A stretch of 64,000 nucleotides of DNA from NCBI RefSeq assembly GCF_000010805.1, contig NC_012522.1, positions 4,650,001 to 4,714,000 on the forward strand, read 5' to 3'. How positions within the stretch are numbered: the first letter of the stretch is position 1; the number at the start of each line of letters is the position of its first letter. The DNA is from Rhodococcus opacus B4. Its GTDB lineage: Bacteria > Actinomycetota > Actinomycetes > Mycobacteriales > Mycobacteriaceae. Both the position numbers and the translations under genes were made by a program. The notes below the pieces were generated by a model that made no database searches, was not told where the DNA came from, and saw only the letters and a list, made by a program, of their open reading frames with translations. This document shows, one piece after another, positions 6,100 through 56,019 of the stretch.

Positions 6100-6139
6100 A
6101 ACTGCTCGGGTTCACCGACTGGAGCCCTGTCGAGGGGCG

Positions 6140-12754: not shown

Positions 12755-12765
12755 ACCCCGCCCGC

Positions 12766-39430: not shown

Positions 39431-39444
39431 CCCGTGCAGGTCAG
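39427..39444. terminator. Short hairpin between convergent DUF5996 and cbtA
   Basis: CTGACC-N6-GGTCAG, containing the stop codons of both convergent genes. Weak but well placed. Confidence 0.4.
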
Positions 39445-40235
39445 GCTGCGTTCGCCGCCGCGGGCGCCGTGGCCCGGGTGGCACGCTCGGTGAGGAACGC
39501 GAACACGAGTCCGAGAACCAGCCACAGCGTGGCCTGCGTCGCGAGCGACGACAGTCGGAACTGCCACAGCAGCACTGCGGGGAAGTCGTCGCCCACTTCG
39601 TTGATGGTGGGCAGCACGAGGTATCCGACGGTCGTCACCACGAGGAACACGGCAACCGGCGCGGCGATCCGCACCGACAGGAACTCCTGTGCGGCCACGG
39701 CCTTCGCCGCGAAGACGGACGCGACCACGGCGAGCAGGCCCAGCGCGACCGCGGCAAGCCACAGCCAGGTGCGCTGGTTGATCGTCTCGGGGTCTCCGAC
39801 AGCGGGCGGGTTGGCCGGGTACTTGAAGAACGGCACCGCCTCGATTGCCAGCCAGCCGAACGCGGCCAGGGTCAGACCGAGCAACGGCCCCGACAGCGTC
39901 GTCACCCGACGTGCGTAATTCGCGACGACGGCGAAGATCGCTCCCAGTGCCAGCCCCGCGAGGGACGTGGCGAGGAACAGTCCGAAGCGCTGCCCGTCGC
40001 GGCTGACCAGGGCCTCTTCCTCGTCGTGCGAGTGCCCGGCAGGCTCGTCCGCCTGCGCGGCGTCATGCGAGTGGCCTTCGGGTTCGGCGGCGCTGTGCGA
40101 CTCCTCGATCGCGATGGCCGCGTCGATGTGCGACTCACCGAGAACGAACGCGACGCCACCGGCCAGGATGCCTGCGATCAGGCCGGCCAGCAGACCGCGG
40201 ATCAGGAGTTTCGTGAAGGAATCGGTCAGTGGCAT
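39441..40235 (-). CDS. CbtA-family cobalt transporter
   Basis: A 264-residue membrane protein with about six helices and a His/Asp/Glu-rich extracytoplasmic loop after the first helix (GHSHDAAQADEPAGHSHDEE), a typical metal-collecting loop. CbtA with CbtB forms a predicted cobalt importer in bacteria that make or use B12. It overlaps the cbtB stop by 10 bases and is under the riboswitch at 40456-40563. Confidence 0.9.
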   Translation of the reverse strand: MPLTDSFTKLLIRGLLAGLIAGILAGGVAFVLGESHIDAAIAIEESHSAAEPEGHSHDAAQADEPAGHSHDEEEALVSRDGQRFGLFLATSLAGLALGAIFAVVANYARRVTTLSGPLLGLTLAAFGWLAIEAVPFFKYPANPPAVGDPETINQRTWLWLAAVALGLLAVVASVFAAKAVAAQEFLSVRIAAPVAVFLVVTTVGYLVLPTINEVGDDFPAVLLWQFRLSSLATQATLWLVLGLVFAFLTERATRATAPAAANAA

Positions 40236-40420: not shown

Positions 40421-40455
40421 AGTTCCTCCTGGGATTTCGCGTCCCCTAGGTCCAG

Positions 40456-40563
40456 GCGATGGCCGCAGTATCTGGCTGTCGAGGTGGTTCCCGTGAAGGA
40501 CTACTCCGATTTACAGTGGCGCGACCGCTCCGGGATTGCACCGGATTCCTGCCGAACCATCGC
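40456..40563 (-). promoter_or_regulatory. Cobalamin riboswitch controlling cbtBA
   Basis: The minus strand reads AGGAATCCGGTGCAATCCCG, then GCGCCACTGTAA, the conserved core of cobalamin aptamers, and later AGCCAGATACTG, a B12-box-like segment. The ends pair as a perfect 7-bp P1 stem, GCGATGG (40563-40557) with CCATCGC (40462-40456). Just after P1, CCTGG can pair with CCAGG of the ribosome site (CCCAGGAGG), suggesting translational control: high B12 hides the site and stops cobalt import. Confidence 0.88.
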
Positions 40564-40626
40564 ATTGTCCTGCGAACTTTTGCACCCGGCGGGCCGTCGT
40601 GTCAATCCTTCCGCCCGGCCCCGCGC

Positions 40627-41729: not shown

Positions 41730-41784
41730 GAGCGTCCGCATGCCCGTCGTTGTGTGTTCGTTTTTTTCGTTTTATGGTTGAGGT

Positions 41785-42243
41785 ATGGCCGCTCTGATGA
41801 ACCGCACGGTGTTGCCGCCGGGCGCCGACGATCGGGATGTTCTCGCCACGTTGAAGTATGTTCTCGCTGGTCAGGATGATGTGACGATCTCGACCCCGGA
41901 GGGTTCGGTGTCGTTGCCGGACAGTGTCCGGGGGTTGCTCTTCGACGCGGTCACGGCTCTGGATCGGGGGCAGGCGGTGACGGTGGAGCCGCATCGGACG
42001 GTGTTGACGACACAGGAGGCCGCGGAACTGCTGGGCATCACCCGGCCGACGCTGGTGCGGTTGCTGGAGGCCGGGAAGATCCCGTACTCGTCGCCGGGCC
42101 GGCACCGGCGGGTGGAGTTGGCGGACGTCCTCGCCTTTCGACAACAGGAGCGTGCGCGACGCGGTCAGGTGTTCGAGGAGATGGCGCACGAGGAAACCCC
42201 CGACCCCGGCGACGCCGCTGACGGCTTCGCTTCGACCCGCTGA
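41785..42243 (+). CDS. Excisionase-type HTH protein, probable antitoxin
   Basis: A 152-residue protein. Residues about 70-120 form an HTH_17 (MerR/excisionase-like) domain: LTTQEAAELLGITRPTLVRL followed by PYSSPGRHRRVELADVLAFR. The N-terminal part is not recognised. An AT-rich stretch (41758-41780) precedes it. The gene is followed 16 bases later by a PIN-domain gene; HTH_17/PIN_3 pairs form a known class of toxin-antitoxin modules, with the HTH protein as antitoxin and autorepressor. Confidence 0.78.
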   Translation: MAALMNRTVLPPGADDRDVLATLKYVLAGQDDVTISTPEGSVSLPDSVRGLLFDAVTALDRGQAVTVEPHRTVLTTQEAAELLGITRPTLVRLLEAGKIPYSSPGRHRRVELADVLAFRQQERARRGQVFEEMAHEETPDPGDAADGFASTR

Positions 42244-42259
42244 TCGAGGGGCCAGGGCG

Positions 42260-43447
42260 ATGGCTGCCTTCCGGGTGGTTCTCGACGCGTGCGTCCTGCT
42301 TCCGCAGGTCCTGAACGATGTGCTGCTCGCCCTGGCCGATGCCGAGTTGTTCCGGCCGGTGTGGACGCCGGATCTGCTCGACGAGGTGGAGCGCAACCTG
42401 GCCGGGGAGAGGTTCGGTAAGTCGCCGGAGCAGGCGGCGCGGCGGGTCCGGCAGATGCGCAGGGCGTTCCCGTTCGCGGAGGAGGAGTCACGTGGGTACC
42501 GCGAGTTGATTCCCGCGATGACCAACGATTCGAAGGATCGGCACGTCCTGGCTGCGGCGGTACGGTCCGGTGCAGCAGCGATCGTGACCGCCGACCTGAA
42601 GGACTTCCCGCAGGCGGCTCTCGACCCGTTCGACGTCGAGGCGATCCACCCCGACGAATTCCTCTGCGATCAGCTCGATCTGGACGCGGAAGCGGTGTTC
42701 GAGTGTATGCACGCGCTGGTCGCCCGGAATGCGCTCCCGCCGCGCACGGTGGGGGAGCTGCTCGAGTTGCTCGGCCGGCTGACCCCACGGTTCGTCGACG
42801 CGGTCCAGGCATTGCTCGGCGCCCGGGACGACGCCTCGGACCGCGGTGCGGTGCCGGCGGCGCCGGCCCTTCCGGAGCTGACCGACGAGCAGATCGACTC
42901 GTTGCCGCCCGAGGTGCGGCAGACGTACCGGCAGCTTCGTGCGATGGATCCCGCCGAACGGGTGCGGTTTCTCGGGCATTCAGATCTGGTGAATGCGGCG
43001 TGGGCATTCCTGATGCCGGTGTGCGTGGACGGGGATCTGCTGTCGGTGTGGCCGAACGTGGATCCCGACTTCCGGGCGGTGCTCGCGCAGAAGTGGGCGC
43101 AGGACAACCACTATCAGATGACCGTCGACGGGTGGGAGGTCGAGTCGGTCGCGTCGGCCCTGGCGGCGCCGGTGCCGGATCATCCGCTGTGGGTACATTT
43201 CGAGCGCGTGCATGTGCGGTCGTTCCGGGCGATGCTGCCGGATCCGGCGACGTGGGGAATCGGTTCCGCCACCAGGATGGTCGCACCGGGGGTCGAGGCG
43301 CTCTACGTGCTCGACACGGCGACGCTGCAGGGCGGCCTGTGGCACCCGAACGATCCCCGGTATGTGTGCCCGGTCATCATGCATCTCGTCGACGGGCGTT
43401 GGCTGGTGCGAAATCTGGGGTCGGAGTCGGACCCCACCACGACCTGA
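42260..43447 (+). CDS. PIN-domain RNase (VapC-like, PIN_3) with long C-terminal extension
   Basis: A 395-residue protein. Residues 1-135 form a PIN domain: VVLDACVLLP with Asp9, DLLDEVERNL with Glu42, NDSKDRHVLA with Asp93, and IVTADLKDFP with Asp112, the acidic metal site of RNase toxins. A helical segment follows to about residue 195. The remaining 200 residues (from LPELTDEQIDSLPPEV) are not usual in such toxins and not recognised by me; they contain a globular, Trp-rich region ending in GRWLVRNLG. ATG 42260 has GAGGGG upstream. Confidence 0.78.
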   Translation: MAAFRVVLDACVLLPQVLNDVLLALADAELFRPVWTPDLLDEVERNLAGERFGKSPEQAARRVRQMRRAFPFAEEESRGYRELIPAMTNDSKDRHVLAAAVRSGAAAIVTADLKDFPQAALDPFDVEAIHPDEFLCDQLDLDAEAVFECMHALVARNALPPRTVGELLELLGRLTPRFVDAVQALLGARDDASDRGAVPAAPALPELTDEQIDSLPPEVRQTYRQLRAMDPAERVRFLGHSDLVNAAWAFLMPVCVDGDLLSVWPNVDPDFRAVLAQKWAQDNHYQMTVDGWEVESVASALAAPVPDHPLWVHFERVHVRSFRAMLPDPATWGIGSATRMVAPGVEALYVLDTATLQGGLWHPNDPRYVCPVIMHLVDGRWLVRNLGSESDPTTT

Positions 43448-43478
43448 GCTTACGTCTCTGCAGGGGTGAATGGTTGCC

Positions 43479-43496
43479 AGCCCCGGGGTGCCTATC
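43479..43496 (+). promoter_or_regulatory. Cluster-shared element, copy C (CCCCGGGGTGCCTATC)
   Basis: AGCCCCGGGGTGCCTATC lies 67 bases before the methyltransferase ATG. GGGGTGCCTATC repeats as AGGGTGCCTATC in front of the TDO-like gene (53679-53696), with a related copy before the cupin fusion. Likely activator site or promoter element of the cluster. Confidence 0.5.
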
Positions 43497-43562
43497 GCGC
43501 GCCGCGGTCAAGCCTCACGCTGGAAGTATTGCTGTACTCCACGACCTATTCAGAGGCGCACA

Positions 43563-44582
43563 ATGTATTTCGACTTCCGTGACAAGCCCGAACGTCTCTG
43601 CGTCAAAGAGATGGTTCATGGCTACACCATATCCTGCTGCCTGTTCGTCGCCGTCAAGCTCGAGCTCGCCGATCTGCTGTCGGGGGGCCCGCTGGCGCTT
43701 GCCGATCTCGCCCGGCGCAGCGGAACCGATCCCGATGCGCTGAAGCGGATCCTCCGGCTACTGATGAGCGCCGGGATCTTCTCCGTGGACGAGCAGGACA
43801 CGTGCGCACTCACACCGCGAGCCGAGTTCTTGCGCAGGGACGACCCGGAATCCATCGCAAGCGAGGTGGAGCTCTTCGCCGGCGCAGAAACGTACCTGGC
43901 CTGGAGCGAGCTGCTCCACTGTGCTCGTACGGGACAGACAGGTTTCGGCCAGTTCTTCGGCAAACCCCTCTTCGACTACCTGGCCGATCACCCCGATTCC
44001 GCCCAGCGCTTCCATCTCGGCTGGCACGAGATCTCGATCCGCGCCGGTCTCGAGACCGCGGAAGCGGTCGATTTCACGGAAGATCGGCATGTCATCGATG
44101 TCGGCGGTGGTTACGGCATCGTGACCGCCCAGCTGTTGCGCAAATATGATCATTTGCAGGGCACGATCTACGACCTGGAGTTCTCCCTGGCCAAGGCCGG
44201 TCACACCTTGCGAGAGTATGGCGTCGACGAGCGCTGCGACATTCTGCCCGGCGACGGCTTGGCAGAGGTGCCCGGCGGGGGCGACGTACACCTACTCAAG
44301 AGCGTCCTGCACACGATGAACGACGACGACTCCGTACGCATCCTCACCAATTGCGCGAACGCACTCGAGCCCGGCGGCCGGATCCTGGTCCTGGAGCGGG
44401 TGATCAGCGAGGATGGCGGATACGTCTGGGGGAACGTGGTGGACGTGGCCATGCTGGTCATGACGGGCGGCCGCGAACGGACGATTCAGGACTACGCGCG
44501 CCTGTACGAGCGCGCGGGCCTCGAACTCACCGGAAGTACGCTCCTGCCCTGCGGTTTCAGCGTGATCGAGGGCCGGAAGTGA
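43563..44582 (+). CDS. SAM-dependent O-methyltransferase (Methyltransf_2 type), first copy
   Basis: A 339-residue enzyme with an N-terminal winged-helix dimerisation domain (LADLARRSGTDPDALKRIL) and a Rossmann domain with VIDVGGGYG, IYDLEFSLA and the catalytic-region LKSVLHTMNDDD; the His in SVLHTM is the general base position of this family. It methylates a hydroxyl (or carboxyl) on a small molecule. ATG 43563 fits the family start; longer frames extend into the promoter motif. A second, related methyltransferase closes the cluster at 56015. Confidence 0.88.
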   Translation: MYFDFRDKPERLCVKEMVHGYTISCCLFVAVKLELADLLSGGPLALADLARRSGTDPDALKRILRLLMSAGIFSVDEQDTCALTPRAEFLRRDDPESIASEVELFAGAETYLAWSELLHCARTGQTGFGQFFGKPLFDYLADHPDSAQRFHLGWHEISIRAGLETAEAVDFTEDRHVIDVGGGYGIVTAQLLRKYDHLQGTIYDLEFSLAKAGHTLREYGVDERCDILPGDGLAEVPGGGDVHLLKSVLHTMNDDDSVRILTNCANALEPGGRILVLERVISEDGGYVWGNVVDVAMLVMTGGRERTIQDYARLYERAGLELTGSTLLPCGFSVIEGRK

Positions 44583-44640
44583 GACCGACCGGGCGAGCGC
44601 GACCTCCGAACGTCGGCGGACGCCGGGGAACTGGGTCGGC

Positions 44641-45834
44641 ATGGCACACATCTTGATCGTCGGCGGACACGACGAGACCTTTCGAATGATCGAGGACCTA
44701 CCGGTCGAGCTGTCTGTTTTTCAGAATTCCGAATCGGTCACTTTGCGGCAGGCCAGGCGCGCCCGCCGGCTGTGCGTATTCGACTACCGAAACCAGACAG
44801 AGGCGCTCGGCAGGGCGCGGGCGCTGCACGAGTTCGAACCCGTCGACGCCGTCGTGTCGTTCACCGAGCACGGCCTCATGCCGGCCGCCGTGATCAGAGA
44901 GGCGCTGGGCATCAAGGGCAACGCGCGGGAAGCCGTCCGGTTGACCCGCGACAAGATCGCCATGCGCGAGCACCTGTCCGGCCGTGACTTGGGAGCTGTG
45001 CGGAACCGAAGCTGCCATTCGGCCGCCGAGGTACGGAGCTTTCTTCTCGAAGTGGGCGGCCCCATTGTGGTCAAGCCGGCCGGAGGCGCCGGCAGCTCCG
45101 GCGTTTTTCGCGTCTCGAGCCTCGAGCAGGTCGACTCCGCATTCGCCCGCTCTCGCGGCGAGTACCCCGGGCCGACCCTCGCCGAAGAGTTCATCGACGG
45201 CCCCGAATACAGCGTCGAATCCTTCAGCACGGAGGGCCGGCACGACATCATCGCGGTGACCGAGAAGACCACCACCGGCCCGCCGCGGTATATCGAAATC
45301 GGTCACCAGATGCCGGCCGTGCTCGCCGCATCGGCCCATGCCGAGCTCTGCAGGCTGGTCACCGACTTCCTCAGTTCGATCGGTCATTCCTTCGGTCCGG
45401 CCCATACCGAAGTGCGGTTCGGCCCGGCCGGGCCCCGGATCATCGAGGGCAACACACGTCCCGGAGGCGATTTCATCTGGGAGCTGGTGCTCCGTGCCAT
45501 GGGTCGCGATCTGGTCCGGGAGTCGATCTGTCATCTCGCCGGGCTGCCGCCGCAGCCGCGAATACCCGGGCGCGGGGCAGGCTGCGTCGCATTCTTCGCC
45601 TACGAAAATGTGGTGATCGAACGCGTGCAGGGCATCGAGGCCGCGCGTCGGAGCGAGGGGATAATCCGGTTGCAGTGTTCTCTCGAACCAGGGCAACGCC
45701 TCGGTCCGCTCCGATCCTCCGCGGATCGTCAAGGTGTCATTGTCGCGGTCGGCACCGATCTCGCGGATGCCGAGCGCCGGCTGGCCGACGCGCAGGCTCG
45801 GATTCGGGTGGAGACGGCCCCGCTTCCGCACTGA
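44641..45834 (+). CDS. ATP-grasp carboxylate-amine ligase, first copy
   Basis: A 397-residue ligase. N-terminal biotin-carboxylase-like domain (MAHILIVGGHDETF), ATP-grasp lobe with Lys145 in VVKPAGGAGSSG, the adenine region AEEFIDGPEYS, and magnesium ligands Glu257 and Glu269/Asn271 in EVRF and IIEGNTRPGG. Such enzymes activate a carboxylate as acyl phosphate and join it to an amine, often in dipeptide-like natural products. Co-directional with the methyltransferase, 58 bases apart. Distant from the second ATP-grasp enzyme, so each probably makes its own bond. Confidence 0.87.
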   Translation: MAHILIVGGHDETFRMIEDLPVELSVFQNSESVTLRQARRARRLCVFDYRNQTEALGRARALHEFEPVDAVVSFTEHGLMPAAVIREALGIKGNAREAVRLTRDKIAMREHLSGRDLGAVRNRSCHSAAEVRSFLLEVGGPIVVKPAGGAGSSGVFRVSSLEQVDSAFARSRGEYPGPTLAEEFIDGPEYSVESFSTEGRHDIIAVTEKTTTGPPRYIEIGHQMPAVLAASAHAELCRLVTDFLSSIGHSFGPAHTEVRFGPAGPRIIEGNTRPGGDFIWELVLRAMGRDLVRESICHLAGLPPQPRIPGRGAGCVAFFAYENVVIERVQGIEAARRSEGIIRLQCSLEPGQRLGPLRSSADRQGVIVAVGTDLADAERRLADAQARIRVETAPLPH

Positions 45835-45862
45835 CCGGGCAGGCCCAGTACTGCCCGGTCAG
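45831..45862. terminator. Bidirectional terminator between the convergent ATP-grasp genes
   Basis: A perfect 12-bp stem (CTGACCGGGCAG with CTGCCCGGTCAG) and 8-base loop. It contains both stop codons, so it ends the two converging cluster operons. Confidence 0.85.
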
Positions 45863-47118
45863 CAGGAGGTGGGGCGGTGCGTGGGCTGCTCGAGCGGCAT
45901 TACTCGCACGGTCGTCAAGATTTCGCGAATGAGTGAGGTCACTTCGGAGCTCGACCGGCCGGCGACGATGCCACTGACGGGCAATTCGAAATCGAAATAG
46001 CTCACGGTCTCCGGAAGGGAAGCGCCTGGATCCAGCTGCGTCCACCGAACGACATCTGGGTGGGTTCGAAATCCTTCGCCACCCCGGATCGCGCAGTGTC
46101 GCGACCCGAGCAGGTGACCCGGGAACATGAAGTCCCCGTAGACCTTACTACCCGGCGTCCTTTCGAACCACCGGCTCAGCGGATTGACTTCGAGAGGTGA
46201 CCACTCGAGGTTGCAGGCCAAACCGGCTGCGACCAAGTCGATTCCCGTGGCAAGCCGGAATGTCTCCTTGATATGTCCCCCGCCGGCGCGGGCGCCGACC
46301 TCCAGGAAGACCATTCCGTCTGCGGCCTCGATCATTTCGAGGTGAAAGGGGCCGTTGTCGATGCCCACCGCCCGAAGGTACTCGACCGCTACCTTGCAGC
46401 GCCCACCGTCGTCGTCGACTTGAATCGATCCCTGCGGAATTCCCTGGGCGAACTCGAGGCACGTGCCCAGATATCTGCTGGCGACGATCGCGACCGGCGC
46501 ACCGGCCAGCATCACACCATCGAAGTGGAAGATCGGCCCCTCCACATATTCTTCGAGCTGGAAGCGCTCCGGATCCCAGCCCTCCAGACCAGGCGGGCCA
46601 TCGAGAATCGCAGTGCGCGCGTCAGCGAAGGTGGCGAACACGAAAACATCCTTGCTCGCGGTTCCGTCGAGTGGTTTGAGCACCGTCTTTCCCGCCCACG
46701 GAGCGGCATCGGCGGACGAGGCGGTGAGGGCCTCGTCGCAGCGGACAAATCTGGGCACGCGAAGTCCGCATCCCGCGACTGCGGCTTTCATCGCTACCTT
46801 GTCGTTCACGATGTGAACCTGCTCCGGCGATACCCCTTCTACTCCGAGGACCCGTCTTATCTGCGCTGCCTCCATCATCTCGTACTGGGAGACGCTGATG
46901 ACTCTGTCGAAGGAATCGTCGGGGGAGAACAGGGTAAGAACCTCCTCGGCCAGACCTGCCCGACCCGGCCGTTCGACCTTGATGCAGGGAAGGTCGGGCG
47001 GCACGGTGGCAAGTTGCGCGCTTGTGCCCACGTAGACGACATCGTGCATTCCATGATCGATTACCCGATGGTATTCGATGAAGGAATAGGGAACGCGATG
47101 GAGGATCAACAGTTTCAT
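45859..47118 (-). CDS. ATP-grasp carboxylate-amine ligase, second copy
   Basis: A 419-residue ligase starting MKLLILHRVPYSFIEYHR. ATP-grasp features: Lys148 in TVLKPLDGTASKDV, QLEEYVEGP, Glu261 in FHLEMI and Glu273 in FLEVGARAGGGH. This pattern (ending EVGARAGGGHI) resembles ATP-grasp enzymes that ligate amino acids. ATG 47118 has GGAG upstream; the longer in-frame ORF above it is non-conserved. Last gene of the leftward operon, 125 bases after the aminotransferase. Confidence 0.85.
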   Translation of the reverse strand: MKLLILHRVPYSFIEYHRVIDHGMHDVVYVGTSAQLATVPPDLPCIKVERPGRAGLAEEVLTLFSPDDSFDRVISVSQYEMMEAAQIRRVLGVEGVSPEQVHIVNDKVAMKAAVAGCGLRVPRFVRCDEALTASSADAAPWAGKTVLKPLDGTASKDVFVFATFADARTAILDGPPGLEGWDPERFQLEEYVEGPIFHFDGVMLAGAPVAIVASRYLGTCLEFAQGIPQGSIQVDDDGGRCKVAVEYLRAVGIDNGPFHLEMIEAADGMVFLEVGARAGGGHIKETFRLATGIDLVAAGLACNLEWSPLEVNPLSRWFERTPGSKVYGDFMFPGHLLGSRHCAIRGGEGFRTHPDVVRWTQLDPGASLPETVSYFDFELPVSGIVAGRSSSEVTSLIREILTTVRVMPLEQPTHRPTSC

Positions 47119-47243
47119 GTAGAAGACTCCGCTGGATGGATTACCGATCGGCGCAATGGAATTTCGCTTTCCTGTACTATCCCGAGCCGGCGGACGTGGA
47201 GCTAGGAACCCTGGGGGTGCACATCGCCCACCTCTCGTGGTCG

Positions 47244-48098
47244 TTATCGAATCGCGGACCGGCCGTTGGCCAAGTGCCGATACTCGGTTGCAATCGCGTC
47301 GACCAATGCGGACTTCGCATAACGGATCTCGTCGATGCCGGAGACCCCCAGAATTTCGATCGCAGTGCCACACAGAAATGCGGCGTCGAACGATCCGATC
47401 TCGCTGTATGCGATGTCGCGTTCCGTGACCGTGATCTTCAGTCGCGGACACAGCTCGTCGATGACCGCCCTTCGGGTGATCCCGTCGAGCGCTAGCTCGG
47501 TAGTGGGCGTGAACAATGCGTCACCCTTGACGAAGAACACGTTCGAGCCGCTCGACTCGCACACTGCGTCGGCCGTCGAGAGGAAGAGCACATCGTCGTA
47601 GCCGTCAGCCCGTTGGCGGTGGCTCAAGTAGCTCAACGCGTAGGTAGACGACGTTTTCGCCTGATACGGGTGGCACGAGGCGGGTGCGCGTCGCCACGTC
47701 GCCGTCGAGAGCCGATATCGCTCCGCGGCCGAATTCGAGGGAAAGGGCAGGGCAAACAGGACCACCTTGCTGGAAGAGCCCTGCGCCTTGAAGCTCACAT
47801 CGGTGTCGTCATAGAAGACCAGACACTTTATGTACGCATCGGTCAGATCGTTGGCCTTCACCAATTCGCGGCACGCGTCGGCCAGGTCCGCATTCGAGTA
47901 GTGCACGGTGTGCCCGAACAACTCGGCGGACCGCCGCAACCTGGCGACATGATCGTCACATTTGAATATGCTCCCGCCGTACGTGCGGATACCGTCGAAC
48001 ACAGACGTGGCATACGACAACCCATGGGTGGCAGGGGACAGGCTCACCTCGTCGAATCGGACGCATCTTCCATCTGTCCACGCTATTTCGCTGATCAT
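47244..48098 (-). CDS. Class IV PLP aminotransferase (IlvE/ADC-lyase fold)
   Basis: A 284-residue fold-type IV enzyme. GLSYATSVFDGIRTYGG is the N-terminal signature, Lys148 in PYQAKTSSTYAL is the PLP lysine, and CESSGSNVFFVKGDAL and GITRRAVIDEL complete the cofactor site. It could transaminate a branched-chain or aromatic amino acid, act on a D-amino acid, or be a lyase like PabC. In this cluster it probably makes or uses an amino-acid building block. It abuts the preceding stop exactly. Confidence 0.87.
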   Translation of the reverse strand: MISEIAWTDGRCVRFDEVSLSPATHGLSYATSVFDGIRTYGGSIFKCDDHVARLRRSAELFGHTVHYSNADLADACRELVKANDLTDAYIKCLVFYDDTDVSFKAQGSSSKVVLFALPFPSNSAAERYRLSTATWRRAPASCHPYQAKTSSTYALSYLSHRQRADGYDDVLFLSTADAVCESSGSNVFFVKGDALFTPTTELALDGITRRAVIDELCPRLKITVTERDIAYSEIGSFDAAFLCGTAIEILGVSGIDEIRYAKSALVDAIATEYRHLANGRSAIR

Positions 48099-49025
48099 CT
48101 AGTCTCCATTTCGCGATCTCGCGTATTCCTGCATCGCCTGCGTATGCATTGTGTTGACCGGAATCAGCCAGTTGTCCAGGTCGACGATGTGAATTGCGCC
48201 GACCCGGACCTTGGCGTCGATGGCGCCTCTGCCGAGGCAGATTTCCGTGAAACCCAGCCGATCCGCGAAACGATACATCTGGTAATAGTCGGCGATGTAC
48301 AAATTCAACCCACGAGGAATCCGGTCATGGTCCAGTCCCCGAACGAGCTTCGTGAACACACCACGGTGATCGTCGGCGTAGCTCAGTGATCCGGCCAACG
48401 GTGTTTTCGAGGACTTGTCGTAGTCCAGCTTCACGAAATATTTCTCACCTTCGGACGAGCGGGCCAGCATACGCAGCACATCGCTGGTATAGAGGTTCCT
48501 GGCATGTCCGTATTTGGCCACATTCAATGCCTGGAGGCCGGCGAAATCGAGCAGAACTCGATCGTCCTCCGCCACTTCCGAGAGACGGTGTATCTCGGAG
48601 GTGCACGCCGCCTCTGCTTTCCTGGTGATCCTGACGATCGATTTGTATTGACTGGCTCCTACCGCTGTTCGCAGGGCAAGGTCCACACTTCGTGAAGACC
48701 GGAAGAATGCGGCCTGCATGAATGGAACTGCGATGACGTCGGCGCGCCGACGGCGATCGGATCTGAGAACGGAAGGGACCAATAGCCAGTCGGCGGTCGA
48801 TGCCAGGCGCGACAATTCCGCCAGTGTCCGATCGTCGGGCTCGTCGCACACGGGGATGTAGAAGTATCCGGGTGCGACGTACGCTCGCTCGTGATGCAGG
48901 GCGTCGTCGCTGCTCGCGCTGCGCTGGAGCACCGCGTTCCAGTGCGCGATGTTCTTCAGCGGAAGTTGTGGCCGCGCGACGTCGTGACTGTTACAGAACG
49001 CATCGCGTTGGGGCAGCCATTCCAT
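48099..49025 (-). CDS. GNAT-like protein of the biosynthetic cluster
   Basis: A 308-residue soluble protein without a strong signature. The middle and end (DVLRMLARSSEGEKYFVKLDY, PLAGSLSYADDHRGVF, LNLYIADYYQMYRFADRLGF, CLGRGAIDAK) have the strand-helix order and acceptor-loop look of GNAT/FemX-like acyl- or aminoacyltransferases. If so, it would transfer an acyl or aminoacyl group. It overlaps the transporter gene by 35 bases. Assignment is tentative. Confidence 0.55.
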   Translation of the reverse strand: MEWLPQRDAFCNSHDVARPQLPLKNIAHWNAVLQRSASSDDALHHERAYVAPGYFYIPVCDEPDDRTLAELSRLASTADWLLVPSVLRSDRRRRADVIAVPFMQAAFFRSSRSVDLALRTAVGASQYKSIVRITRKAEAACTSEIHRLSEVAEDDRVLLDFAGLQALNVAKYGHARNLYTSDVLRMLARSSEGEKYFVKLDYDKSSKTPLAGSLSYADDHRGVFTKLVRGLDHDRIPRGLNLYIADYYQMYRFADRLGFTEICLGRGAIDAKVRVGAIHIVDLDNWLIPVNTMHTQAMQEYARSRNGD

Positions 49026-52000
49026 GGTCGTCCTCCTGTCCGTTCCAGTTCCGCCCGACGGTCGTGTGCGACTGGCGAGAATTCTCGAGGAGACGCCGCT
49101 CGCCGTTGAAATGGAAGACTCGATTGGCGAGCGTGGTCAGATCGGGATTGTGTGTGATGATGAAGAAAAGCGTGTCCGGCAAGGCCGAGATCACGGACTG
49201 CAGTATCGAGAGCTCTGCTTCGGTACTCAACTCGGACGTCGCTTCGTCGAGAATGGCGATTGCCGGGCGATTGATCAGGAGGTCGAGGAGCGCGAGCCGC
49301 TGCAGTTCCGTCTTGCTCAGATTCAACTGGCCGGTGGCGGGAACGGTTTCGTCGAATCCCGATCGTAGTCGCCCGACAACGTCTGCCACGTCGAGATAGT
49401 CGACCACACGGGCCAATTCGAGCGGTAGCGGGTTGTCGAAGTGCTCGATCAGCCTTCCTGGCTTGAAGATCGGACTCGACGTCAGGAGGAGGATGTCTCC
49501 GGTGTGGGGAGTCGAGACGTAACCCCCCGTGCGGCCCAGTGTGGAGAGGACGCCTGCAGTCGGCCGCAGACTGCCGACAACCAGCTTCGCGAATGTCGAC
49601 TTCCCGACACCGCTCGGGCCCATGATGACCACGACGTCTCGGCTGGCGAACGACTCCGAAAGCTCCTCCAGCAGCACCGCCCCGGTGCGCGGCGCGAGGT
49701 ACGCGACGTCCGTCAACGACACGAGCGCTGCGTTGTCGACGGCAGAGCCGGTCCGGCACGCCACCGGTTCGATCGGAGCCGAAGGCGACGTGCAGGTGGC
49801 CGTGCTCGGCGTGTGGAGACGATCCGCGCTGTCGAGAACCTGCCTGAGGTCGACCAGGCAACGGCCTGCACGGGCGAAGACCGCGATGAGGTTGTACGAG
49901 AGACTGAGCGCGAGAACACTGGTGAGGCCGGGTCCGCCGCCGGCATGGACGAACACGGTTGAACCGACGACGACAGACAGGAAGAGCACCCCCATCAAAT
50001 CGAGCTTGTAATTGAACCAGCGGCGTGCGCCCGCATTGTCGATCGACGCGAAGGCACGATTCATCACACTCTTGTTCAGCCAATTCACCAGGGCCGAGTT
50101 GTCTCGCGCCAGGTCGAATCTCGCCGAGCTCCAGGTAATGGCCTCGACCCGCTCCAGCACTGTCGACGTCGTACCGATCTCGTTCTCGTTGAAGTCCTGC
50201 AGTCGCCTTCCCGATCGCTTCGAACTGTGCCAGTAGGCGAAGCACATCCCGGCGAGGGGCAGGAGGACGAAAATGTTCTTGCTCAACACGAATGCCGCGG
50301 TCGTGAACAGCAGCGTGACCGCACCCAGGGTGTTCAGAAGTACTTCCGGCAGAAGTTCGTCGATTCGTCGTTGATCCCAGGTCAGTTTGCCCTGATAGTC
50401 CTGGTGGTTCTGATTGTCCTGATCGGCCTCGTCGAAGGCGGACCGGGAGGGCTTCGGACTCATGACAGCCGAGAAGTAACTCTGGCACTTCACGGTTGCC
50501 GCCGCGATGCTGCGCTTGACCAGGAGTAACGAGGTGAACATCGACAGGAGTGCCCCAGCCGACAGTGCAGCGATGAGGGCTATCGCTGCTGTTCGCGCAT
50601 TCGTGGTCGAAATTCCGCTGGCAGCTATGTAGTCGCCGACAATCGTCAGAACGTCGCGGCACGCGAACAGGACGCAGGCGACAACCGCGACCTTCGCGAT
50701 ACCCAGTCTCATCAGACTGCGGCGCGACGAGGTCGCGAATTCCGGTCGGTCCATGGCTTGCGGATGGCGGGAGATCGACCGATCCTCCTGCACGAGTTGC
50801 TGTTTGCGGTCGTGATCAGGATTCGCCGCACGGGGTGTGGGGTTTCGTATCACCTCCACTACCTCGCCTCCGGCCACCACCCATATCTCGTCCGCGGCAT
50901 CTTTTTCATCGGGCTTGTCCGTTGCATAGACAACCGTGGTGCCATGCCACGGCCCGCGCAGAAGCCCGGCCAACAGCCCACTCGCCAGGTCGTCGTCCAG
51001 CCCTGCTGTGGGCTGATCCAGGTAAACGAACCTCGGTTCGGCCAATATTGCCCGCGCCAGTTCCAGCCGCTTCCCCTGCCCGCGGGACAAGTCCCAGCCC
51101 TCGGTCCGGTCGTGTGACTTGCTCGCGAGGTAGTCGCCGTAGAAGGTTTCGGGAAGTCGGGACAGTGCCATGGCCCGACGGGCCTCGTCGTCCGAGAATT
51201 CGCTTCGATAGAGACACAAATTCTCGTAGAGCCCGCCAGGAAATATCCACGGTTCATCCGGTACGAAGAGCGTTTTGTCGCTCACTCGGCTGCTGCGGCG
51301 TGCACCGATTTTCAGAACGGTCGTCTTACCACTGCCCGCCCCGCCGACCACGGCGATGTGCTTCGCCGTTGTTGCCGGTAGGCGCGTTGCCGTCGCATCG
51401 GTGTCCAGCGGCTGGGGACTGGATAGATACTTCGCAACGTTGGTGTGCCCGACGATGCCCTGGGAAAGGCTCTGAACAATGAAGGGAATATTGTTGGCGA
51501 CGGATTTCAATCCTCCGACCAGCGCCATCGCTGACAAAAGGCCCGCCGGATCGACGTACCCGACGTAGGCCAGCTGGGTGAATACCGCGGCAAGCATCGC
51601 GACGATCGGAGTGAGCGTCGATATGAGATTGATCCGCGCGACAAGACGCGCCGCTTTCAGGAGCGCGCGCTCCTCACCATCTCGCTTGTCGGCATAGCGC
51701 CGAAACAGTTCGTCGTTCCAGTTCTTGAGCCACGCGAGCAGGCGATTGTTCATCGCAAACAGGCCGACTTCGATGCGGTCTGCCGCCGTCGCCGACAGTG
51801 CAGCATGCGCGGCATTCAATTGTCTGGCGTTCCAGAAGATCACCACGGAACTGATGAGAATCACCGACAGAGCCGCGAAAGCGCTCAGTCCGAGCGCCAC
51901 GAAGAAGTACGCGGAGGTGAACGTGATGGTTGCGAGTGCCAGGATGATAAAAATTAGTCCAGACCACGCGTTTTCGACGCGTGCCGCCTCCCGGTCCAGC

Positions 52001-52482
52001 AGCGTGACAAGGTCGGCCGGTTGGCCGGAAGCGGAAACGCCGCGCTTCTTGCGCAGCAGCCTTTGTTCGATGTAGGTCCGGGCTCCGATGCCCACCACGT
52101 CGGCTTGCATGAACGTGTGATTCAACGCAAGCCACGCCACGTACGTCAGCACGATGCAGGTGGCAGCAAGGCCGAGGTTCGTCGTGAGCTCCGAACCGCC
52201 GGCGACGAGGTGCTGGATCAGCGATTTCAGCGTGATCGCAGCACCGAAAGCGCATCCTGCATTGATCGCGATGGCCACGAGCCCGAGCACGATGTCACGA
52301 CGGAGCCCGCCGAAGATGGATCTGCTGAGTCGCTCGCCCCGGGGCGCGTTCACGCTGTCCCGCTGCGCCGCATCACACCACCGCCGCCACCTGGCAAGGT
52401 GCGAGGCGTCGGGCGACGGGTCGAGCCGAGTTCGAGGTCGGGGAACCTCGAACCAGACGATTCTCCTGAGGACGCTCAGCAT
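48991..52482 (-). CDS. Fused ABC exporter with two TMD-NBD halves and one degenerate ATP site
   Basis: An 1163-residue protein. TMD1 is about 55-330, NBD1 370-550 (Walker A GGAGSGKT, signature LSRGQG, Walker B FVYLDQ), TMD2 590-870 and NBD2 920-1130 (Walker A GPSGVGKS, signature LSKTE, Walker B AILDEA). NBD1 has Gln490 where the catalytic Glu should be, and NBD2 has a degraded signature; both changes fall in the same composite site, so one site is degenerate and one canonical. Start ATG 52482 overlaps the cupin fusion by 7 bases; a longer frame is less likely. Probably exports the cluster product, perhaps as self-resistance. Confidence 0.9.
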   Translation of the reverse strand: MLSVLRRIVWFEVPRPRTRLDPSPDASHLARWRRWCDAAQRDSVNAPRGERLSRSIFGGLRRDIVLGLVAIAINAGCAFGAAITLKSLIQHLVAGGSELTTNLGLAATCIVLTYVAWLALNHTFMQADVVGIGARTYIEQRLLRKKRGVSASGQPADLVTLLDREAARVENAWSGLIFIILALATITFTSAYFFVALGLSAFAALSVILISSVVIFWNARQLNAAHAALSATAADRIEVGLFAMNNRLLAWLKNWNDELFRRYADKRDGEERALLKAARLVARINLISTLTPIVAMLAAVFTQLAYVGYVDPAGLLSAMALVGGLKSVANNIPFIVQSLSQGIVGHTNVAKYLSSPQPLDTDATATRLPATTAKHIAVVGGAGSGKTTVLKIGARRSSRVSDKTLFVPDEPWIFPGGLYENLCLYRSEFSDDEARRAMALSRLPETFYGDYLASKSHDRTEGWDLSRGQGKRLELARAILAEPRFVYLDQPTAGLDDDLASGLLAGLLRGPWHGTTVVYATDKPDEKDAADEIWVVAGGEVVEVIRNPTPRAANPDHDRKQQLVQEDRSISRHPQAMDRPEFATSSRRSLMRLGIAKVAVVACVLFACRDVLTIVGDYIAASGISTTNARTAAIALIAALSAGALLSMFTSLLLVKRSIAAATVKCQSYFSAVMSPKPSRSAFDEADQDNQNHQDYQGKLTWDQRRIDELLPEVLLNTLGAVTLLFTTAAFVLSKNIFVLLPLAGMCFAYWHSSKRSGRRLQDFNENEIGTTSTVLERVEAITWSSARFDLARDNSALVNWLNKSVMNRAFASIDNAGARRWFNYKLDLMGVLFLSVVVGSTVFVHAGGGPGLTSVLALSLSYNLIAVFARAGRCLVDLRQVLDSADRLHTPSTATCTSPSAPIEPVACRTGSAVDNAALVSLTDVAYLAPRTGAVLLEELSESFASRDVVVIMGPSGVGKSTFAKLVVGSLRPTAGVLSTLGRTGGYVSTPHTGDILLLTSSPIFKPGRLIEHFDNPLPLELARVVDYLDVADVVGRLRSGFDETVPATGQLNLSKTELQRLALLDLLINRPAIAILDEATSELSTEAELSILQSVISALPDTLFFIITHNPDLTTLANRVFHFNGERRLLENSRQSHTTVGRNWNGQEDDHGMAAPTRCVL

Positions 52483-53528
52483 GTGGAATACGTGGGGACC
52501 GCAGTGTCGGCCAATGCGATCGACGCGATTCTGTCGCACAACTGCGTGATCATCTTCCATCCCTCGGCGAGTGCTTCGCGGAGTTCGCGGATCTCGGCAG
52601 GTGTTGCTCGATCGAGCAGATCGATACCCATGCTCACGTGCTCACCGTCGTCGTCGCCGTGTTCCTGGAAGTGCGGAATCGCCGGAAACGCGCGCGCCGC
52701 CTCCCGGTGCCAGATTTCGCCACTACCTTCCAGCACCACATGCATCAGCAGAGTGCGCACCATGTCGCTCCGGTACAGCATTTGATGCCGGAACCACTCC
52801 ATTGCCGCTACGAACGTCGCGTCCGTGACCGGCGCGTGCTCTGATCCCCGTTGGTTGCGCAGGTTGTCGTTGTGGCCCAGTTCCTCGACCAGATGGTCGA
52901 GCGCCACCTGCTTGTGCGCCGCATCGGTGGTCATCGCGACACGCAGGTGCAGCAGGTCCTGAAACACGTCCGACCAGGTTTGCTGGCAGTCGAGCAGCCG
53001 TTCCCGAACGCGGGGGTCGTCGAACGAGGGGTCGTCGATCAGCCGCAACAGGTTGCTGGTTCCGAATTCCTGCAGGTGCTTCTCGTTGTCCTCCAGGAGC
53101 ACGGCCGCGGGATTCGGTACCTCGCTTGCAAACACCGCATTGGGCTTCTCGCCGTCCTCGTAGAGCGCCTTGCCGTTGAACTGGATCGAGAGCGCCCAGA
53201 AACCGTCCCGGGTTCCTTCGAAGCCGTGCCAGGAGTCGCCGGGTACGAGGATCATGTCTCCGGCAGTGACCTCCTGCTCCGCACTGCCCAACGTGCGTCC
53301 GGAGCCTTCGCAGATCAGGATCAGGCTGGACTCCGGGTGCTTGTGCACCGCCAGCACCTCACCGCACTCCAGCCTGACCCAGCTGATCGCCAGGTTGCTG
53401 GAAGCAGGAATGAATTGCGCCAACTGAGGGTTGCCGCTGAATATCTTGACGACACCCAGGTTATGGGTGCTCCCGCCGACAACGGCTTCGTTGATCGTTT
53501 CGAGCGCGCTTCTGGCGATTATGTGCAT
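52476..53528 (-). CDS. Cupin fused to a haem-oxygenase-like diiron oxidase (HDO)
   Basis: A 350-residue two-domain protein. Residues about 20-125 form a cupin with metal ligands His62, His64, Glu66 (VHKHPESS) and His101 (GDSWHGFEG). Residues about 155-340 look like an HDO domain: EELGH (Glu215/216, His219), Glu267, His274 and DDDGEHVSMG (Asp294, His297). HDO enzymes linked to cupins are known in SznF (streptozotocin) and RohS (azomycin), both of which oxidise nitrogen. An N-oxygenation role is therefore a reasonable guess, not proof. ATG 53528 has GGAAGAG upstream. First gene of the leftward operon. Confidence 0.75.
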   Translation of the reverse strand: MHIIARSALETINEAVVGGSTHNLGVVKIFSGNPQLAQFIPASSNLAISWVRLECGEVLAVHKHPESSLILICEGSGRTLGSAEQEVTAGDMILVPGDSWHGFEGTRDGFWALSIQFNGKALYEDGEKPNAVFASEVPNPAAVLLEDNEKHLQEFGTSNLLRLIDDPSFDDPRVRERLLDCQQTWSDVFQDLLHLRVAMTTDAAHKQVALDHLVEELGHNDNLRNQRGSEHAPVTDATFVAAMEWFRHQMLYRSDMVRTLLMHVVLEGSGEIWHREAARAFPAIPHFQEHGDDDGEHVSMGIDLLDRATPAEIRELREALAEGWKMITQLCDRIASIALADTAVPTYSTC

Positions 53529-53623
53529 AGATCTCTTCCTTCTGTAAGGCATGTGCGAATTCATTGGAATTACGCCCCGAGCTCAATGTCTTTCCCAATG
53601 TTGGGCACGCGCCTCCCGGCCGA

Positions 53624-53641
53624 ACAGGCACCCCAGGGTTG
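53624..53641 (-). promoter_or_regulatory. Cluster-shared element, copy B (CCCTGGGGTGCC)
   Basis: The minus strand reads CAACCCTGGGGTGCCTGT, 96 bases before the cupin-HDO start and oriented toward it. It shares CCCTRGGGTGCCT with copy A on the other strand of the same divergent region. Confidence 0.45.
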
Positions 53642-53678
53642 AAATCGTCACCCCCCAGCGGAAAGGGTGCCGGGAACT

Positions 53679-53696
53679 CTCCCTAGGGTGCCTATC
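53679..53696 (+). promoter_or_regulatory. Cluster-shared element, copy A (CCCTAGGGTGCCTATC)
   Basis: CTCCCTAGGGTGCCTATC lies 46 bases before the TDO-like ATG. A further AGGGTGCC half occurs at about 53664-53671, giving two direct repeats. Shared with copies B and C in front of the other cluster operons. Confidence 0.5.
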
Positions 53697-53742
53697 CGCA
53701 GTCGCCGCGTCCCATCGAAGATTGCTGAACACCGCAGTAAGG

Positions 53743-55017
53743 ATGAAAGCGAGTTTCGCATTGATTTCCGAAACGATGCTCGAAGCCGAGCAGAAACTTG
53801 TTGGTTCCGGCGTGATCGGTGTCGGGGGCACGTGCCTTCAGGCTGCCGAAGCGACGACCGAAGAATTGTCCGGACGCACAATCGAGAATGCACTCCGACA
53901 ATGGGAAGCGGGACACGCGGAGTTTCCCCATGCGGCGGTCGCCGCCCATTATCAGGCAGTCGGGCGTAACGGGGTCCGGCCACACCTGGTCGACAGGCTG
54001 CGAGACTTCCACAGCAGCAACCGTGCGAATCATGTTCTCAGTTGCTGGCTTCCGATGACGTTCGATGCGCAGAACGGTGACTATCTGTCCTATGTCGGGC
54101 TCGACTACTTCGACCGGGTCGTCCGGTCCGATGACGCGCAGCGTGTCGACGCATTCATCGCTGCCGCGGCCATGGACCTCGCCTTGCTGGAGGCGCGGGC
54201 CCTCGCGAGGTCGGCACACGCACCCCAGGTGGCCCGGGTGCGAGCGGCGACGCGGGTCGTGACTCAACTCGCGCGGCTCGCACCCGCCTTCGCGCTCGAT
54301 CCTGCCGTAGCCGCGGCCGGCCTCGAGGCACTGGCTCAGCCGGGCGCCGAATACAGTTCGTTCGCTTCGGTCGCCGAGCCGGCGCTGAACGGTGTCCCCG
54401 AGGAGATCGGAATCGCGGTTCGGCTGACGTTGTTGCCGACGACTCGCCTGCACGACGAACAGATGTTCATCCGCTGCATCCAGATCTTCGAAGGCCTGTA
54501 TCGGCAAGTTGCGACAGCGATTTCGATGGCGATCCGTGACCTGCACAACGGTCTGGCCGCAGCGGCAAGGGATCGCCTCGACCAGGCATCGATCCGTCTC
54601 GAAGCGGTGCCCGCGCTCTTTCGGGTTCTGACGACGATGCCGGTCGACGCTTTCGCGGTTATTCGCGGCTTCACCCATGGGCGGAGCGCGGTGCAGTCGC
54701 GCGCGTTTCGTGAGGTCGAGTTCGCGTGCGCTCCACTCGATCCCCGCGACTTCGAGCACTGTCCGAAAATCGATGTCGGGGAGGCGACGTTGCAGGACAC
54801 CTATCTCGCGATGCGGACAACGCATCCGGACGCGAGCGTGCTCGAGAAGTCGATGCGGCGCCTGGATCGTGCATGGGGTGCGATGAAGCGAGGCCACTGG
54901 GGTATCACCCTGAAGGTCATCGGAACGGTACCGGGCACCGGCGGGACGGCGGGCGCGTCGTATTTGCAGAATGCCGCCACGAAGTCACTCTTCCCGCAGC
55001 TGTCCGAGGTGGCGTGA
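53743..55017 (+). CDS. Tryptophan 2,3-dioxygenase-superfamily haem enzyme with N-terminal extension
   Basis: A 424-residue protein. The second half carries the TDO/PrnB signatures: RLHDEQMFIRCIQIFE (His237, matching HDE-x-F of TDO), AFREVEF, and GHWGITLKVIGTVPGTGGTAG, where His385 aligns with the haem-ligand histidine and PGTGG with the substrate loop. The superfamily includes tryptophan dioxygenase, PrnB and MarE, which act on tryptophan or modified tryptophan. The first 200 residues are not recognised. Start uncertain: ATG 53743 has AAGG directly adjoining; TTG 53722 and ATG 53776 are alternatives. Followed 2 bases later by a methyltransferase. Confidence 0.75.
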   Translation: MKASFALISETMLEAEQKLVGSGVIGVGGTCLQAAEATTEELSGRTIENALRQWEAGHAEFPHAAVAAHYQAVGRNGVRPHLVDRLRDFHSSNRANHVLSCWLPMTFDAQNGDYLSYVGLDYFDRVVRSDDAQRVDAFIAAAAMDLALLEARALARSAHAPQVARVRAATRVVTQLARLAPAFALDPAVAAAGLEALAQPGAEYSSFASVAEPALNGVPEEIGIAVRLTLLPTTRLHDEQMFIRCIQIFEGLYRQVATAISMAIRDLHNGLAAAARDRLDQASIRLEAVPALFRVLTTMPVDAFAVIRGFTHGRSAVQSRAFREVEFACAPLDPRDFEHCPKIDVGEATLQDTYLAMRTTHPDASVLEKSMRRLDRAWGAMKRGHWGITLKVIGTVPGTGGTAGASYLQNAATKSLFPQLSEVA

Positions 55018-55019
55018 AC

Positions 55020-56015
55020 ATGAGCGATGTCAACCACCGCGTCCGGAAACAGATCATGGGATACATCGTGTCCCAATCTATTTCAGCGGTCTGCGAACTG
55101 GGCGTGCCCGACCGATTGGCGAACGATGCGTGCTCGCTCGGCGATCTCGCGGCCAGCGTGGGTGCCGACGCCGACGCACTCGGCCGATTCCTGCGGGTAC
55201 TCGTCGCGGAGGGATTGCTCGAGGAAGACGGCGGAGGACGATTTGCGTTGACGGAGGCCGGCGAGCTCTTGCGGGCCGACACTCCCGGCTCGCTTCGTCA
55301 CTTGGTCGGCCTGATGTCGAACGAGGCCTACTTCGTGTGGGGGCACGCAGCCCATTCGATCCGAACGGGGAAGGAATCGTTTTCAGCGGCCTTCGGTAAA
55401 CCGTACTTCGAATGGTTGTCCGAGAATCCCTCGGCCGCCGATGAGTTCGCACGGGGTCAGGCGGGCCTGGTCGAGCTGCGTTTGCTGCCTCTGCTCGACC
55501 ACGACTGGTCCGACGTGGGAACGGTCGTCGACGTCGGAGGCGGCACCGGGGCACTGATCACCCGGTTGCTCGATCGGCACGCACAACTACACGGCATTCT
55601 GTTCGATCTGCCTCACGTGGTCGCGGAAGCGCCGTCGCAGTTTTGTTCGGCCGGCATCGGTGAACGAACGACAGTCGTCGGTGGAAGTTTCTTCGACGAC
55701 GTCCCCCGGCACGGTGACGTCTACGTGTTGTCTCAGATTCTGCACGACTGGGACGACGCGTCCGCCGGCAAGATCCTGAGCAGTTGCCGGCGCGCGATCC
55801 CGGCAAGCGGACGATTGATGATCGTCGAGCAGGTCCTGCCGGAAGCAGCCACAACCCACCCCATGGCTTTACTGGATCTCCACATGCTGGTTCTCCTGGG
55901 AGGGCGCGAACGCACGGTCACCGAATGGCGCCGACTGCTGACCGACCACGGATTCACGCTCGATTCGATCACGCACGGTCCCCGGTCGTCCGTCATCGAA
56001 GCGGTCCCGGTGTGA
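55020..56015 (+). CDS. SAM-dependent O-methyltransferase (Methyltransf_2 type), second copy
   Basis: A 331-residue relative of the enzyme at 43563: winged-helix dimerisation domain (LGDLAASVGADADALGRFL), SAM loop VVDVGGGTG, LFDLPHVV, catalytic-region LSQILHDWDD, and LGGRERTVTEW. The first copy shares GGRERTIQDY, so the two are probably ancient paralogues with different acceptors. Coupled to the TDO-like gene, suggesting it methylates that enzyme's product or the final compound. Confidence 0.9.
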   Translation: MSDVNHRVRKQIMGYIVSQSISAVCELGVPDRLANDACSLGDLAASVGADADALGRFLRVLVAEGLLEEDGGGRFALTEAGELLRADTPGSLRHLVGLMSNEAYFVWGHAAHSIRTGKESFSAAFGKPYFEWLSENPSAADEFARGQAGLVELRLLPLLDHDWSDVGTVVDVGGGTGALITRLLDRHAQLHGILFDLPHVVAEAPSQFCSAGIGERTTVVGGSFFDDVPRHGDVYVLSQILHDWDDASAGKILSSCRRAIPASGRLMIVEQVLPEAATTHPMALLDLHMLVLLGGRERTVTEWRRLLTDHGFTLDSITHGPRSSVIEAVPV

Positions 56016-56019
56016 GCCG

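Follow-up and report, generated by a model that had tools for sequence, protein, structure and literature searches.

A conserved nine-gene island in Rhodococcus opacus B4 that may make and export an oxidised, methylated amide or dipeptide

The window analysed here is a stretch of 64,000 nucleotides of the Rhodococcus opacus B4 chromosome (NC_012522.1, 4,650,001 to 4,714,000), and its positions 43563-56015, numbered within the window as are all positions below, carry nine genes that form one conserved, mobile (horizontally moved) biosynthetic island. Gene content, joint presence and absence, conservation, a shared box and the retention of active-site residues were observed directly. We lean towards the view that the island makes and exports a small oxidised and methylated amide or dipeptide, built from an aromatic amino acid independently of nonribosomal peptide synthetases (NRPSs).

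Gene content, conservation and a shared box

A listing of open reading frames places nine frames in this stretch, at the positions and in the orientations first described in a sequence-only reading of the window, with OMT1, AG1, the TDO-like gene and OMT2 on the plus strand and AG2, AT4, an orphan gene, the ABC protein and the cupin-HDO gene on the minus strand (TDO, tryptophan 2,3-dioxygenase; HDO, heme-oxygenase-like diiron oxidase):

43563..44582, plus strand: OMT1, an accessory O-methyltransferase of 339 residues, Methyltransf_2 family (PF00891, 119 bits)
44641..45834, plus strand: AG1, an ATP-grasp L-amino-acid ligase of 397 residues (PF13535, 62.7 bits; PF18603, LAL_C2, 66.9 bits)
45859..47118, minus strand: AG2, a divergent ATP-grasp ligase of 419 residues (PF13535, 17.1 bits against a cut-off of 27)
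47244..48098, minus strand: AT4, a class IV (branched-chain type) aminotransferase of 284 residues (PF01063, 169 bits)
48099..49025, minus strand: orphan protein of 308 residues, formerly labelled GNAT-like, found in the Rhodococcus copies and without a match in Pfam or NCBIfam
48991..52482, minus strand: fused ABC exporter of 1163 residues, two membrane-ATPase halves in one chain
52476..53528, minus strand: fusion of an N-terminal cupin (PF07883, 31.2 bits) with a probable HDO, 350 residues
53761..55017, plus strand: long TDO-like heme protein of 418 residues (PF03301, 42.2 bits; cut-off 34.9)
55020..56015, plus strand: OMT2, an O-methyltransferase directly behind the TDO-like gene (PF00891, 165 bits)

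Frames overlap or nearly touch at the cupin-HDO/ABC, ABC/orphan, orphan/AT4 and TDO-like/OMT2 junctions, and AG2 starts 125 bp behind AT4. The TDO-like frame probably starts at TTG 53761. The ATG further upstream, at 53743, is a less likely start, since a stop codon occupies its position in all eight orthologous loci examined. Both O-methyltransferases and the class IV aminotransferase named in the sequence-only reading are borne out by these matches, as is the fused exporter, in which PF00005 and PF00664 each match in two stretches, the latter at 27.8 bits, a fraction below its threshold of 28. The Pfam matches displayed for the cluster's proteins include no NRPS or polyketide synthase (PKS) family, in agreement with the sequence-only reading, and none of the nine is a Rieske protein. 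The claim of two ATP-grasp ligases divides: AG1 is clear, its ATP-grasp and LAL C-terminal domains, which together mark L-amino-acid ligases, both exceeding their Pfam cut-offs; AG2 is divergent, falling below the PF13535 cut-off, lacking a LAL_C2 match in Pfam, scoring 51.8 bits on NCBIfam PRK07206 (cut-off 302) and sharing 31% identity over 236 residues with an ATP-grasp protein of Planotetraspora (locus L007). For the GNAT-like label of the orphan protein no support emerged. None of eight orthologues has a GNAT match and comparison with eight Acetyltransf_6 matches returned nothing, which leaves a GNAT or FemAB label without support; a C-terminal motif looked possibly GNAT-like by eye. The orphan gene is nevertheless a constant member, present in each of nine Rhodococcus cluster copies with 71-91% identity in seven aligned orthologues, and its product found no match in 295 other genomes of the class; its predicted model, with a mean predicted local distance difference test (pLDDT) score of 39, is too poor for its fold to be trusted.

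The co-occurrence in other genomes that the sequence-only reading had called for is found. The TDO-like gene is present in nine of 28 genomes of the genus, the window's own counted, and in all eight others it sits inside the same cluster, which has the nine-gene form in six and a seven-gene form in two (L023 and L024; L024 and L005, R. tibetensis, are one record). Of the nine-gene loci, the stretches read for L004 and L006 end within OMT1. In the seven-gene layout a distinct ATP-grasp gene, the cupin-HDO gene, the ABC gene, the orphan gene and AT4 diverge from the TDO-like gene and OMT2; this ATP-grasp gene lies directly before the cupin-HDO gene, and its product is about 32% identical to AG1 and matches PF13535 at 66.1 bits with no LAL_C2 match. 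OMT1 was not found in either seven-gene cluster, where its only match is at the OMT2 position (about 35% identity). Identity to the window proteins is 83-94% for nine-gene and 67-83% for seven-gene copies. At L021 (15450-16465) OMT1 is in two pieces in different frames and is probably broken, with intact copies elsewhere. Across 396 genomes of the phylum the TDO-like gene was found in three, namely the window's own and two with distant long-type relatives. In Planotetraspora (L007), too, a TDO-like gene is found with OMT2 and ATP-grasp genes; OMT2, which is present at the other Rhodococcus loci as well, is 56% identical there.

Two relatives without the cluster, G321 and G299, being the two cluster-free genomes whose surroundings were read, have an empty site in which the same flanking genes lie 11 bp and 183 bp apart. 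Against these the absent block is:

41730..56018, strandless: island extent relative to the two empty-site relatives, including an HTH/PIN pair

This pair, an HTH_17 protein followed by a PIN-domain protein (41785-43447, plus strand), is toxin-antitoxin-like, and it was rejected as a needed part of the cluster, the PIN gene being broken in L020 and neither gene having a match in L021. A MutY gene adjoins the copy in the window and all but one of the six other nine-gene copies; it was likewise rejected as a member, since it is a flank gene present in all six cluster-free genomes tested. A single chromosomal site for all nine-gene copies was also rejected: in L004 (from a metagenome-assembled genome) the 3.9 kb that follow OMT2 hold none of the flank genes. 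There a frame that by eye resembles part of a group II intron maturase (12575-13210) takes the place of MutY, through either another site or an assembly join. The seven-gene copies occupy yet other sites. In the window, G+C content is lowest in the four 2-kb bins at 46-54 kb (0.606-0.623, against 0.624-0.733 elsewhere). All nine genes are under purifying selection, with ratios of nonsynonymous to synonymous substitution rates (dN/dS) of 0.08-0.31 (one pair compared for OMT1, two for AG1, three for AG2 and five for each remaining gene), those of the orphan gene being 0.14-0.20. Kept across species, absent as a block from two relatives and held by purifying selection, the set is more than a chance assembly.

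The transcription units of the island also share a box, CCCnnGGGTGCCTRTY, oriented in each case towards its gene:

43481..43497, plus strand: shared box, 65 bp before OMT1
53622..53638, minus strand: shared box, 93 bp before the cupin-HDO operon
53681..53697, plus strand: shared box, 63 bp before the TDO-like gene
47201..47216, minus strand: weaker box with two mismatches before AG2, in four of the eight nine-gene loci scanned (three of seven genomes, two of the four loci, L003 and L025, being one genome)

The divergent pair between the cupin-HDO operon and the TDO-like gene is kept with at most one mismatch wherever a scanned Rhodococcus locus spans it (11 loci from nine genomes, clusters at other sites included), at a spacing of 56-60 bp from start to start, and the OMT1 box is present with 0-2 mismatches in all five loci that span the place (the window, L020, L021, L022 and L025). 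The three boxes of the window compare with 0.26 expected, a figure that is indicative only, the pattern having been derived from these very sites. In the 8.8-Mb genome there are seven exact matches, three of them in the cluster; at one mismatch or fewer there are 19, against nine for a reversed control. Two of the exact copies outside the cluster have an open frame 36 and 57 bp downstream (methyltransferase-like and hydrolase-like by eye). The box was not found in Planotetraspora L007 or Streptomyces L008. To judge from these sites, the transcription units of the island are probably co-regulated, and the box may be part of a wider regulon. Independent regulation of the two halves, which the sequence-only reading had named as fatal to a single cluster, is thus contradicted at the level of sequence.

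The TDO-like enzyme and the cupin-HDO fusion

The family profile of the TDO-like protein matches TDO structures at E 2e-23, and its PF03301 score lies above the family cut-off; on the NCBIfam equivalog TIGR03036 it reaches 56.6 bits against a cut-off of 390.7. In the alignment the proximal heme His and the GTGG(S/T) loop are kept, as are the pocket Phe and the Thr of the GTGGT loop. The YxSYxxLD motif with its Tyr position, which in TDO reaches into the neighbouring subunit (compare PMC11904535), is kept as well. The carboxylate-binding Arg is shared by the window protein, its aligned Rhodococcus orthologues and the proteins of L007 and L008, and is Gln in L009 and Lys in L028, L029 and the long form of L063. 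The HDE motif lies at residue 231, compared with about 45 in TDO structures, which leaves some 185 extra residues in front. Set beside the TDO/MarE branch as described in PMC11904535, the window enzyme is alike in heme His, carboxylate Arg and TDO-type GTGG(S/T) loop and differs in having Ile/Leu for the distal His and a long N-terminal part. The earlier assignment to the TDO superfamily is therefore upheld by the profile match and qualified by the replaced His: the enzyme probably works like a heme-dependent aromatic oxygenase of the TDO family, and we stop short of classing it as a TDO.

The only clues to a particular amino acid are this enzyme and the neighbours of relatives elsewhere. The relative of the HDO part at L019 (31% identity) adjoins a tryptophan dimethylallyltransferase (Trp_DMAT, E 9e-15), and the distant TDO-like gene of L028 adjoins a kynureninase-type enzyme (KYNU_C, E 3e-12). 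The TDO-like relative at L009 belongs to an NRPS cluster that by eye carries genes of the hydroxyphenylglycine type; its NRPS codes, likewise read by eye, suggest hydroxyphenylglycine and glycine rather than tryptophan or kynurenine. In Planotetraspora thailandica (L007, 3241-12224) the TDO-like gene and the OMT2 relative are accompanied by ATP-grasp genes, a radical SAM gene, an MFS-like frame and an AdoMet decarboxylase-like gene, in what looks like a related but distinct pathway. As the neighbours of the relatives vary, the assignment to tryptophan is moderate. A tryptophan-derived product, as first suggested, is plausible by family resemblance and neighbourhood and is weakened by the loss of the distal His; the substrate is plausibly tryptophan or a relative of it.

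In the 350-residue fusion the cupin occupies about residues 50-106, ahead of the candidate diiron ligands E216, H219, E267, H290, D294 and H297, three His and three carboxylates in the order ExxH...E...HxxxDxxH. All six are invariant in the stand-alone protein of L019 and in a cupin-HDO fusion from Embleya (L062, 40% identity), and the spacing of HxxxDxxH is the same as in the Haem_oxygenas_2 proteins compared. On this pattern the C-terminal part is very probably an HDO, so that of the cupin-HDO fusion first described the cupin is established by its Pfam match and the HDO is probable, its Pfam score remaining sub-threshold. Searched against the 396 phylum genomes, the cupin-HDO profile found the window's own protein and one cupin-only stretch (E 3e-7). 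The Embleya gene (L062, 16001-17014, a megaplasmid of Embleya sp. NBC_00888; identity over 97% of the length) stands among P450-like, FabG-like and PaaZ-like frames (by eye), with no annotated features listed. At L019 (9246-11140), from the same class, the small HDO relative is the one next to the Trp_DMAT-type prenyltransferase.

Proposed pathway and rival explanations

In the pathway that we favour, the TDO-like enzyme would bind a free aromatic amino acid, its carboxylate to the Arg and its ammonium to the Thr of the GTGGT loop, and would oxygenate the ring, most likely that of tryptophan, with or without a ring substituent. The product of the neighbouring gene, OMT2, may then methylate the oxygen so introduced, while AT4 would supply or interconvert a partner amino or keto acid. 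The ATP-grasp ligases, one in the seven-gene and two in the nine-gene form, would couple the pieces by way of acyl phosphates, the cupin-HDO protein could oxidise the amino-acid part with its diiron site, and the fused ABC protein would export the product. OMT1, AG1 and AG2 would elaborate the product in the nine-gene clade. The claim of a single NRPS- and PKS-free unit with ATP-grasp amide bonds, methylation and export finds support.

Several observations weigh against this picture. The distal His, which contacts the indole N-H in known enzymes (His55 in MarE, His72 in CmTDO; PMC11904535), is Ile in eight and Leu in two of ten aligned proteins, in a register taken from the profile alignment with TDO structures, and without it the substrate may not be plain tryptophan. 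The host genome holds a stronger PF03301 match elsewhere. The TDO-like relative at L008 lacks all of the other eight genes, and the one at L009 likewise lies without cluster genes; around the Embleya cupin-HDO gene no match to the other eight proteins appeared within the 33 kb read. PF14518 (Haem_oxygenas_2) stays sub-threshold in the window protein (11.6 bits against 28.9, E 0.24); among the relatives it reaches E 0.037 at L024 and 0.006 at L019 and is not listed for L023 and L062. A profile-profile comparison with 25 Haem_oxygenas_2 matches from relatives was not significant (probability 0.3%), its aligned stretch placing the conserved Glu and HxxxDxxH in register. The predicted cupin-HDO model has a mean pLDDT of 45 and resembles generic helical bundles in fold comparison, and the L019 HDO alone gave no match in the PDB. 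Finally, four exact copies of the box lie outside the cluster, at 333853, 2244626, 4117700 and 7015242 of the genome.

The best placed rival, in our judgement possible yet rather doubtful, sees in the TDO-like protein an ordinary tryptophan 2,3-dioxygenase that forms N-formylkynurenine. In that case the product would be an amide of the kynurenine or quinoline type, such as an O-methylated acid of kynurenic type made via AT4 and OMT2. The profile match, the retention of heme His, Arg, Thr, Phe and the neighbour-subunit Tyr, and the kynureninase-type neighbour of a distant relative all speak for this rival. In IDO, another indole dioxygenase, the distal residue is Ser, so the His is not essential. 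The rival is opposed by the distal position itself, which is Leu in the long form of L063 too and thus Ile or Leu in all 11 long-type sequences aligned. That locus (5667-7669, in an NRPS cluster on a plasmid of Streptomyces sp. NBC_01343) carries a normal-length TDO and a long TDO-like protein in adjacent genes, and since only the normal-length form keeps the distal His, the two forms side by side suggest different jobs. Also, the Pfam matches of the cluster's proteins do not include a kynurenine formamidase family. A bolder idea, tentative as it is, takes the long TDO-like proteins to form a branch of their own among the heme-dependent aromatic oxygenases, one that, for want of the distal His, acts on an N-substituted or N-less indole substrate or performs a non-TDO oxygenation; with the reversed cupin-HDO protein they would mark a new class of exported, NRPS-free Rhodococcus peptide, one aromatic residue of which is worked by heme and diiron oxygenases.

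It is unlikely that the cupin-HDO protein acts like the N-nitrosating SznF to give an N-hydroxy, N-nitroso or related N-N product. HDO and cupin in one chain do recall SznF, and operons with HDO-cupin and ATP-grasp genes were predicted in 2010 (PMC2922099). Against this, the cupin of SznF is C-terminal and that of the window protein stands at the opposite end, before the HDO part; the ligand pattern, as far as sequence shows it, is the ordinary set of three His and three carboxylates, SznF having an extra, seventh ligand (3H/4C); and an HDO relative without a cupin exists (L019). The ligand argument is blunted by HrmI, an N-oxygenase among the HDOs with three His and three carboxylates. Characterised HDO reactions include C-C cleavage, desaturation and the formation of nitriles, azetidines and alkynes, and two HDOs, AetD and SktA, act on bromo-tryptophans (PMC13108848, PMC13185094). 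With so many reactions in the family, an HDO domain does not imply N-oxidation, and the description of the product as N-oxidised, one of several possible HDO outcomes, does not follow.

An amino-acid catabolic or detoxification island appears improbable. Rhodococcus genomes are rich in catabolic islands; here the pair of methyltransferases, the ATP-grasp ligases and the exporter speak for synthesis, the host has another, stronger-matching TDO-family gene, and the spread of the cluster is patchy. That two unrelated operons stand side by side by chance is highly improbable and, as regards independent halves, largely refuted by joint presence, block absence and the shared box: although OMT1, AG1 and AG2 were not found in two species and this part is hence separable, the cupin-HDO and TDO-OMT2 operons and the box pair have stayed linked in each of the Rhodococcus copies read, and these lie at more than one site.

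Known relatives and implications

In our best reading, drawn by analogy, the island would be of the NRPS-independent kind that pairs an HDO with ATP-grasp ligases, after the logic of mangotoxin. As set out in PMC13185094, the mangotoxin genes mboABCDEF likewise combine an HDO with two ATP-grasp amino-acid ligases and no NRPS. The ligands of MboA (Glu86/His89, Glu143, His172/Asp176/His181) are of the same six types with ExxH as in the window protein, the last step, Asp176-His181, being longer than Asp294-His297 here. Mangotoxin biosynthesis involves MboB, which is a redox partner, and the deiminase MboE, and the text consulted makes no mention of a TDO-like enzyme, aminotransferase, methyltransferase or cupin. 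The paper counts 25 HDO/ATP-grasp clusters. In nine Rhodococcus genomes ATP-grasp genes lie beside the cupin-HDO operon, the HDO part itself being only probable. The operons predicted in 2010 ('Predicted class-I aminoacyl tRNA synthetase-like proteins in non-ribosomal peptide synthesis', PMC2922099) also have a diiron oxygenase and a cupin in one chain near ATP-grasp ligases, and some an efflux transporter, a likeness to the ABC exporter of the island. There the diiron part is N-terminal, the cupin is C-terminal and a Rieske protein is present, whereas here the order is reversed and the Rieske protein is missing; the island adds the TDO-like enzyme and the O-methyltransferases.

No published description of this gene combination was found in a library of open-access papers, MIBiG lying outside the search, and the main texts of two Rhodococcus genome-mining papers (PMC5550956, PMC11433410) are without the terms sought. 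Within that library the combination remains, as the sequence-only reading had it, without a characterised match.

Elsewhere in the window, a cobalamin riboswitch (40444-40576, minus strand, 37 bits) precedes a 264-residue membrane protein (39441-40235) that by eye looks like a CbtA-type cobalt transporter.

The island joins the heme-dependent aromatic oxygenase and HDO families in one small cluster, and its TDO-like enzyme is without a residue that plays a part in current mechanistic work on TDO and MarE. Genomes with the nine-gene form, with the seven-gene core and with the empty site provide natural controls, which makes this a compact and testable pathway. Genome scans keyed to NRPS and PKS genes may overlook such clusters.

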